Part shown: piece by piece, positions 1,828-17,374 of the stretch | Position numbering within the stretch: the first letter of the stretch is position 1 | How the letters are laid out: the number at the start of each line of letters is the position of its first letter | NCBI RefSeq assembly: GCF_035581365.1 | Contig: NZ_CP141590.1 | Coordinates: forward strand, 2,662,001 to 2,726,000 | DNA: 64,000 bases | Reading direction: 5' to 3' | Source of the DNA: Tsuneonella sp. CC-YZS046 | GTDB taxonomy: Bacteria; Pseudomonadota; Alphaproteobacteria; Sphingomonadales; Sphingomonadaceae | Made by a program: the position numbers and the translations under genes | The notes under the pieces: model-generated | What the model was told of the DNA's origin: nothing | The model's input: the letters and a program-made list of their open reading frames with translations, nothing else | Databases searched by the model: none

Positions 1828-1843
1828 TGTTTCACGTGAAACA
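1828..1843. promoter_or_regulatory. parS centromere site (ParB binding)
   Basis: The 16 bases TGTTTCACGTGAAACA form a perfect palindrome identical to the classical chromosomal parS consensus bound by ParB. It sits in the mnmE-mnmG gap, 55 bp upstream of the mnmG start and about 5.5 kb from the probable origin. That agrees with parS clustering near oriC. It could also influence mnmG expression when ParB spreads. I saw no second exact copy in the window. Confidence 0.93.
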
Positions 1844-6294: not shown

Positions 6295-7320
6295 TCATCC
6301 CTTCCATTCCCTGATTGCGCGCAACAGCCGCTCGACATGCGCGATCGGCGTATATTGCCCGATCCCGTGGCCCAGATTGAAGACATGCGGCCGGCTGGCG
6401 AAAGCCTCCAGCACCGCGATCGCCCGCTTTTCCAGCCCGGCATTGCCGGATTCCAGCAGCAGCGGATCGAAATTGCCCTGCACCGGCAAGCCATCGGGCA
6501 AGGCGGCGGAAGCCCAGACAGGATCGATCGTCTCGTCCAGCCCGATCGCATCCGCGCCCGTTTCCCGCGCATAGGCGGCCAGCTTTTCCCCCGCTCCCTT
6601 GGGAAAGCCGATCACCGGGACATCGGGATGGCGGGCCTTGAGCGCGGCAATGATCCGCGCATTGGGCGCGATCACCCAGCGTTCGAATTCGGCCGGGGCC
6701 AGGCTGCCGGCCCAGCTGTCGAACAGCTGCACCGCTTCCGCCCCGGCTTCGATCTGGCCCGAGAGATAATCGACCGTGACTTCGATGACCGCATCGATGA
6801 TCGCGGCGAACGCGGCCGGATCGCGATAGGCCATCAGCCGGGTGGCGTGCTGGTCGCGGCTGCCCTCGCCCGCCACCATGTAGGTCGCCACCGTCCACGG
6901 GCTTCCCGCGAAGCCCAGCAAGGTCCTGCCCGGTTCCAGCGCCACTTTGACCTTCGCGACGGTCTCATAGATCGGCCGCAGCCTTTCCGGCACGGCCTGC
7001 AGGCCGCCCAGCGCATGATCGACTAGGCGCGGCGACAGGCGCGGCCCTTCCCCCGCGAGGAATTCCAGATCCTGCCCCATGGCATAGGGAACGATCAGGA
7101 TGTCCGAGAACAGGATCGCCCCGTCGAAGCCGAAGCGCCGGATCGGCTGGAGCGTGATCTCCGCCGCCGCCTCGCTGTCATAGACCAGCTCGAGGAAACC
7201 GCCCTTTTCCGCCCGCAAGGCGCGGTATTCCGGCAGGTAGCGGCCTGCCTGGCGCATGAGCCAGAGGGGCCTGGGGAACAAATTCCCACCACGCAGCGTA
7301 TCGAGGAGAATGCCGGGCAT
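6295..7320 (-). CDS. hemE: Uroporphyrinogen decarboxylase
   Basis: Converts uroporphyrinogen III to coproporphyrinogen III in heme synthesis; cytosolic, 341 residues from the ATG at 7320. The signature RQAGRYLPEYR is near residues 23-33, the substrate Asp is in ILFSDILIVPYAMG, and GHGIGQYTP is near the C-terminus. A TTG four codons upstream (7332) is an alternative start; neither has a good Shine-Dalgarno. The gene borders the probable replication origin, exactly as hemE does in Caulobacter. Confidence 0.97.
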   Translation of the reverse strand: MPGILLDTLRGGNLFPRPLWLMRQAGRYLPEYRALRAEKGGFLELVYDSEAAAEITLQPIRRFGFDGAILFSDILIVPYAMGQDLEFLAGEGPRLSPRLVDHALGGLQAVPERLRPIYETVAKVKVALEPGRTLLGFAGSPWTVATYMVAGEGSRDQHATRLMAYRDPAAFAAIIDAVIEVTVDYLSGQIEAGAEAVQLFDSWAGSLAPAEFERWVIAPNARIIAALKARHPDVPVIGFPKGAGEKLAAYARETGADAIGLDETIDPVWASAALPDGLPVQGNFDPLLLESGNAGLEKRAIAVLEAFASRPHVFNLGHGIGQYTPIAHVERLLRAIREWKG

Positions 7321-7330
7321 CGGGTAGTCC

Positions 7331-7355
7331 AATCAAAATAATATTATATTTAAAA
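7331..7355. other. AT-rich block (candidate DNA unwinding element)
   Basis: 24 of 25 bases are A or T in an otherwise very GC-rich sequence. It lies next to the hemE start and 24 bp from a DnaA-box-like site, the arrangement expected for the duplex-unwinding part of an origin. It could also serve as part of the hemE promoter. Confidence 0.55.
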
Positions 7356-7378
7356 GAGGATGAAGGAGTCTGTTGGCC

Positions 7379-7387
7379 TGTGGATAG
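7379..7387 (-). promoter_or_regulatory. DnaA-box-like site 1
   Basis: TGTGGATAG; its reverse complement CTATCCACA differs from TTATCCACA at the first base only. Confidence 0.55.
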
Positions 7388-7609
7388 CGGGTAGAACGGG
7401 CCTCTGCCTGATTTCTCCCCAACTGAACAGGGTTCCCATGCAGGGCGAATCCCGGGCCATGCGCGTCAAGCCGGGGATATGCCCGTTACTCACAGCCTGT
7501 AGAGAAAGCTTTCCCCCTGTCTAGAAGCTCCCGGTCGATCGGCCGGAAACGGGCATGGAAACCGCGGCCGCCCTTGTCCCCTCGTTCATCCCGTGGTTTA
7601 TGCCGCCCA

Positions 7610-7618
7610 TTGTCCACA
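7610..7618 (+). promoter_or_regulatory. DnaA-box-like site 2
   Basis: TTGTCCACA differs from TTATCCACA at one base. It lies 22 bp upstream of the ppsR start, opposite in orientation to site 1. A weaker TTACTCACA (7486-7494, two mismatches) lies between them. Confidence 0.5.
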
Positions 7619-7639
7619 GCCTCGCGGTGCGCTTTCCCG

Positions 7640-8485
7640 ATGACCCGGCTTCATCTTCATCTCCTGTCGGATTCCACCGGAGAAACGCTCGAGATGGTGG
7701 CGAAGGCGGCGCTTGCCCAGTTCGAGAATGCCGATGTCATCCGCCATTTCTGGCCGATGGTGCGATCCCAGCAGCATCTCGACCGGATTCTGGGCGAATT
7801 GGCGAACAATCCGGGGCTTGTGCTGTTCACTCTGGTCAATCCGGAGATCCGCGCCCGGCTGGAAGAGAAATGCCGGGTGCTGGGCCTGCCCATGGTTCCG
7901 GCGCTGGACGCCGTCACCGCGGCGCTGGCGGCGCAGCTGGGCCAGAAGGCGCAGACCCGCCCGGGCCGCCAGCACATGATGGACGAAGCCTATTTCGACC
8001 GGGTCGCGGCGATCCATTACACCATCGCCCATGACGACGGAGTCGGCTGGGAGGACTGGGAAGAGGCCGATATTCTGCTGGCGGGCGTTTCGCGCACATC
8101 CAAGACCCCGACCAGCATCTATCTGGCCAATCGCGGCTTCAAGGTGGCGAATATCCCGCTGGTGGTCGAAAGTCCGGCCCCGCCCAGCCTGTTCGGCTTG
8201 CGGCATCCGCTGGTGGTGGGCCTCACCACCGCGCCCGACCGGCTGGTCCAGGTTCGCCGGAACCGCCTGCTTTCGCTGAACGAGGCGACCGAGACCGATT
8301 ATGTCGACGAGGAACGGGTCCGCAAGGAACTGCAGCTGGCCCGCCGCATGTTCGCCGACAACGGCTGGCCGGTGATCGACGTCACCCGCCGCTCGATCGA
8401 GGAAACGGCTGCGGCGATCCTGCGCCTTTACAGCGAAAGGCAGGCATCGCCCGGCAAGGATCCGCAAGGCGCCAGCCTGCTATGA
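7640..8485 (+). CDS. ppsR: Pyruvate, phosphate dikinase regulatory protein (DUF299 kinase/pyrophosphorylase)
   Basis: Bifunctional ADP-dependent kinase and phosphate-dependent pyrophosphorylase that switches PEP synthase or PPDK; 281 residues. The start [14 protein letters not shown] and the P-loop-like [11 protein letters not shown] at 149-159 are family hallmarks. ATG at 7640 fits the family start; an in-frame TTG at 7574 would add 22 unconserved residues. The last four bases overlap maf. It is first in a tightly packed rightward run ppsR-maf-aroE-coaE. Its target dikinase or synthase is not in this window. Confidence 0.93.
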
Positions 8486-16846: not shown

Positions 16847-17317
16847 TCAGGCCCGCTTTCCGGCGATCCGCGCGATTTCGGCCGCAACCATCTTCTCGAC
16901 CATGCCCGGCAGGTTGCGCTCCAGCCAATCCGCCAGCATCGGGCGGAGCATGTCGCGCACCAGCCCTTCCAGCGAGGTTTCGCCGGAACGGACGATCTGC
17001 GGGCGGGCGCTCGGCTCCGAAAGCATGGCCAGCGCGGCGAGCGATTCGCGCATCGAGCTGCCGACAGCCTCGTTCACCAGCGGCGATTCGGTCACGCCCG
17101 GCTGCTCGAACGGTTCGTCCTCGATCATCTCGGCTTCTTCGCCCAGGTCCAGAATCTCGTCCAGATCCTCTCCCGACTGCTCGATCACTTCCGGCTGAAT
17201 CCCGGCCTGCTCCCGCTGGCGGCGCTGCTCGACCGCGCTTTCGCGGTTGTCGCGCGCGATAACCTTCTTGATCGATTCGAGGATCTCCTCGACCGACGGT
17301 TCACCTTCCTGACGCAT
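16847..17317 (-). CDS. popZ: PopZ-family protein (DUF2497)
   Basis: 156 residues from the ATG at 17317. An N-terminal amphipathic motif (EPSVEEILESIKKVIARDN) is followed by an acidic, Pro/Glu-rich linker (about 30-100). A conserved C-terminal helical part is rich in MLRPMLADWLERNLPGMVEKMV. This is the layout of PopZ, which self-assembles at the cell pole and tethers ParB-parS in Caulobacter. It lies within 10 kb of the probable origin and 15 kb of parS. A polar role is inferred from the family. Confidence 0.8.
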   Translation of the reverse strand: MRQEGEPSVEEILESIKKVIARDNRESAVEQRRQREQAGIQPEVIEQSGEDLDEILDLGEEAEMIEDEPFEQPGVTESPLVNEAVGSSMRESLAALAMLSEPSARPQIVRSGETSLEGLVRDMLRPMLADWLERNLPGMVEKMVAAEIARIAGKRA

Positions 17318-17374
17318 GAGCTGCGTGCCCCATCTTGCTTTGCCCCGTGCGGGCCATATCACAATAGAACGGAA

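Follow-up and report, generated by a model that had tools for sequence, protein, structure and literature searches.

Evidence for a chromosomal replication origin in the hemE-ppsR intergenic region of Tsuneonella sp. CC-YZS046

Results

The hemE-ppsR gap and its surroundings

The genome is one contig of 3,353,183 bp, of which we analyzed the 64-kb stretch at 2,662,001-2,726,000 (hereafter the window). The interval that the initial annotation had placed between hemE and ppsR coincides exactly with the gap left between these divergent genes, and Pfam matches confirmed both flanks. The genes and sites considered here are as follows (window coordinates unless stated otherwise).

Genome 2,661,717 and 2,661,352, just left of the window: two further parS sites
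1828..1843: parS, TGTTTCACGTGAAACA, exact
6295..7320, minus strand: hemE (PF01208, URO-D, E 5e-106)
7321..7639 (genome 2,669,321-2,669,639), 319 bases: hemE/ppsR intergenic gap, predicted oriC
~7330..7355: AT-rich tract, probable DNA unwinding element, 24 of 25 bases A/T
7366..7370: GANTC (CcrM-type) site, well conserved
7379..7387, minus strand: proximal DnaA box, TGTGGATAG (CTATCCACA read on the minus strand), one mismatch
7447..7451: GANTC site inside a conserved GCGAATC
7486..7506: two weak DnaA boxes, TTACTCACA (plus strand) and TGTAGAGAA (minus strand), degenerate in this genome
7590..7604, plus strand: conserved 15-bp element, CCCGTGGTTTATGCC, single exact copy in the genome
7610..7618, plus strand: distal DnaA box, TTGTCCACA, one mismatch
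7640..8485, plus strand: ppsR (Kinase-PPPase; formerly DUF299; COG1806; PF03618, E 2e-92)
16847..17362, minus strand: PopZ-type (DUF2497) gene (PF10691, E 5e-25)

Leftward from hemE lie hemJ (UPF0093), rho, and then mnmE and mnmG (assigned by sequence), and the genes on this side are all directed outward up to the window edge. Rightward from ppsR, maf, aroE, coaE, dnaQ and a few others point outward until ~12.9 kb, beyond which the orientation is reversed; the genes are thus mostly directed away from the gap on both sides, as had been noted before. The nearest relatives of PpsR are found in Erythrobacteraceae and Novosphingobium. Rfam and tRNA scans of the 64-kb window gave no matches. The parS site and the popZ-like gene reported within 10 kb were likewise recovered, the latter 9.2-9.7 kb from the gap, and the genome has three parS-like sites, every one of them within 8.1 kb of it.

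DnaA boxes and the AT-rich tract

The 25-bp AT block and the two opposed near-consensus DnaA boxes of the initial annotation are all present. Two boxes with at most one mismatch were reached in none of 1000 dinucleotide shuffles of the gap, and among the 1.264 Mb sampled only two such pairs occur within 250 bp, the pair in the gap included. The clustering of DnaA boxes in the gap therefore exceeds chance. No exact DnaA box was found in the gap, which counts against reading it as an origin. The AT tract is one of just three loci of this kind in the 1.264-Mb sample and is among its least stable 31-mers; it is a probable DNA unwinding element and may also hold the −10 region of hemE.

We compared the gap among 97 distinct sequences, this genome included. 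Throughout the set hemE and ppsR are divergent and separated by 295-403 bp. Boxes with at most two mismatches occupy the place of the 7379 box in 90 of the 97 sequences and that of the 7610 box in 90 as well, and the places of 7486 and 7498 are so occupied in 56 of 97 each; some of the box positions are more degenerate in this genome than in its relatives. In most relatives the proximal box keeps a near-constant distance of 66-74 bp from the hemE ATG.

Reading onward from this box on the minus strand, one meets GGCC, then a short mixed stretch, then the AT tract; GGGCC follows the box in 62 of the 85 sequences that have one. This order of a DnaA box, a short GC-rich spacer (GGCC here, GGGCC in most relatives) and an AT-rich tract is similar to that in the basal unwinding system (BUS), described in Bacillus subtilis and others (PMC6669920, PMC8287927). 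The BUS is recognized by a DnaA box with at least three 3′-NAN-5′ trios within 16 bp (PMC8287927), and the window does contain a run of four trios at a spacer of 14; across the family the corresponding figure is 23%, against 34% in composition shuffles and 8% in block shuffles. In this respect the family differs from the BUS: its trios are no commoner than in composition shuffles and cannot be distinguished from base composition, and DnaA-trios are therefore not claimed.

GANTC and other sites in the gap

Both GANTC sites described earlier are present, at 7366 and 7447, but the plain count is weak support: two sites against 0.74 expected (148 in 64 kb; P ~0.17) are unremarkable alone. In the relatives, GANTC reaches 13.05 per kb in the gap and 2.38 per kb in the surrounding loci, a 5.5-fold difference. 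The sites here are fewer than in the gaps of most relatives, which also counts against an origin. The IHF-like match, AATCAAAATAATA, was found at 7331 inside the AT block with one mismatch, but it too adds little (P ~0.1 in shuffles). A scan of the response regulators of the genome did not single out CtrA.

Strand composition and parS

GC skew was computed from sampled stretches (1.264 Mb, 38% of the genome) with interpolation between them. In the sampled stretches negative skew prevails on the left of the gap and positive skew on its right, and across 84 contiguous kb the minimum at base level falls at window position 7678. As a proxy for polarity we counted the KOPS-type octamer GGGNAGGG, whose ratio is 65:27 for the right arm and 17:81 for the left. 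A dif search with the gamma-type core gave no match, and the terminus was therefore located solely from the change in skew and KOPS, at ~1.18-1.26 Mb. If the terminus is the skew maximum, the arms measured from genome position 2,669,481 are unequal, ~1.86 and ~1.49 Mb, an inequality accounted for in part by the 228-kb block described below.

The initial annotation had proposed to look for a minimum of cumulative GC skew at this interval. The local minimum is indeed at the gap, but the raw interpolated global minimum is at ~2.95 Mb (2.9535 Mb), 284 kb away, an outcome of the kind that the initial annotation had named as refuting the origin. The displacement is explained by a ~228-kb block (2,726,000-2,953,000), just right of the window, and an inversion farther out, both of which this genome alone shows in a comparison with two relatives; when the block is omitted from the sum, the global minimum moves to 2,669,500, in the gap. 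Nor does the minimum lie beside dnaA, which had been given as an example of a location speaking against an origin here; dnaA is 640 kb away.

A lineage-specific block next to the window

We mapped the gene order against two relatives, both of them sampled so that a few counterparts may be missed: the genome is collinear with both for 55 kb or more on the left of the gap and as far as +55 kb on the right, and practically no counterpart exists from +56 to +284 kb (2 and 1 stray matches). The segment at +293 to +307 kb corresponds to +80 to +109 kb of the relatives. Farther out, +340 to +432 kb is inverted relative to both; this inversion of ~100 kb lies at genome ~2.99-3.11 Mb, and the two relatives agree with each other.

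The block starts by a tRNA-Arg(CCG) gene (2,727,205-2,727,281), of which a 20-bp exact repeat is found beside an integrase at 2,910,764, a distance of ~183 kb. Among the genes of the block are two for integrases, one of TraG type and one for a metal P-type ATPase (metal pump). Given the start at tRNA-Arg, the integrases, the TraG-type gene and the repeat, the block is at least partly a mobile island, and one part resembles an integrative element located at tRNA-Arg. Its other cargo includes LigD, a catalase and a haemagglutinin-like protein of 4224 aa, and its cluster of an error-prone polymerase and ImuA resembles those on rhizobial plasmids. Two partial repeats of the 5′ part of tRNA-Arg, 209 bp apart, are located at 2,726,789 and 2,726,998, upstream of the intact tRNA.

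In a complete relative without the block (G016), the KOPS ratio is 1:4 on one side of this gap and 8:0 on the other, with a second switch near the antipode. Its GC skew at the hemE/ppsR gap is weak.

Discussion

The Caulobacter origin, Cori, has a parS site nearby and contains GANTC sites. It sits between hemE and a DUF299 gene (PMC1914354), so that the hemE flank does match the Caulobacter origin as had been stated. Both flanking genes, an AT-rich tract, DnaA boxes and an IHF-like match (a weak one here) are common to Cori and the gap analyzed here. The two differ in the CtrA sites, five of which have been described in Cori (PMC1914354): TTAA-N6-8-TTAA is absent from the gap in the window and occurs in one of the 97 family sequences. 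For most Sphingomonadaceae, oriC is predicted to lie beside hemE and to hold conserved boxes as well as an unwinding element (PMC4741004; Sphingopyxis granuli TFA, DoriC); the gap shares with these predictions its gene neighbourhood, conserved DnaA boxes and putative unwinding element, although S. granuli TFA belongs to a different genus and probably a different family. In Hyphomonas, marker-frequency sequencing places the origin near hemE, with parAB ~7 kb off (PMC6650430). An origin at hemE is expected, as origins beside hemE have been mapped or predicted in related bacteria.

The lowest raw cumulative GC skew would instead put the origin at ~2.95 Mb and leave hemE/ppsR as merely a divergent promoter region. 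The interpolated minimum at 2.9535 Mb speaks for such a location, and the arms would be closer to equal in length. However, this minimum is at the edge of the block with integrases and a TraG-type gene that two relatives lack, and it shifts to hemE/ppsR without the block. Moreover, KOPS is unpolarised at 2.95 Mb, every parS site is at hemE instead, and the relative without the block switches KOPS polarity at hemE/ppsR. We consider an origin at 2.95 Mb very improbable.

Alternatively, the AT block and the conserved boxes could serve the transcription of hemE and ppsR only. Both promoters must fit in the gap, and the AT block contains a string resembling TATAAT, on the strand of hemE. On the other side, CCCGTGGTTTATGCC is situated 36-50 bp before ppsR and may be part of a promoter; it is strongly conserved column by column, its 12-base core being letter-perfect in only 41 of 97 sequences. 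A promoter role alongside the origin role is likely. Transcription as the sole function would leave unexplained the enrichment of DnaA boxes and GANTC, the switch in skew and KOPS and the clustering of parS, and there is scarcely any chance that it is correct. An origin next to dnaA, as in many other bacteria, can be practically dismissed: the single dnaA, at 3.31 Mb, is 640 kb off within the right arm, where neither a change in skew nor a parS site lies close by, and the 20 kb sampled around it contain no DnaA-box pair within 250 bp. Both dnaA and 2.95 Mb were rejected as origins.

The hemE/ppsR gap is, with high confidence, the single chromosomal replication origin of this Erythrobacteraceae-type alphaproteobacterium, working by DnaA and the AT tract. 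The initial annotation had already read it as a probable origin; the sign change in skew, the polarity of KOPS and the clustering of parS support that reading, which is further backed by the boxes in the 97 sequences, the synteny with G016 and the published origins beside hemE. The arrangement and conservation of the sites, the strand-composition switch and the parS cluster are observed directly, and from them we infer DnaA binding, the site of melting and initiation in this organism. DnaA would bind the two boxes of opposite orientation, at 7379 and 7610, as well as the weaker sites between them. From the 7379 box it would load over the GGCC spacer onto the AT tract next to it (7330-7355). 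The tract would then melt and helicases would load, so that forks depart both ways. The new origins would be segregated by ParABS through the nearby parS sites, perhaps with the PopZ-type protein as their anchor.

It is conceivable, but rather doubtful, that origins of Erythrobacteraceae and Novosphingobium have replaced the CtrA sites of Caulobacter with lineage-specific control elements, namely dense GANTC methylation sites, one of them in the unwinding module, and a protein-bound CCCGTGGTTTATGCC.

These results fix the chromosome origin by independent lines of evidence. They also provide a worked case in which the raw GC-skew minimum would misplace an origin by ~284 kb owing to an acquired block nearby. 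For the family, the footprint of dense GANTC, no CtrA sites and a conserved CCCGTGGTTTATGCC offers testable sites for the timing of replication.
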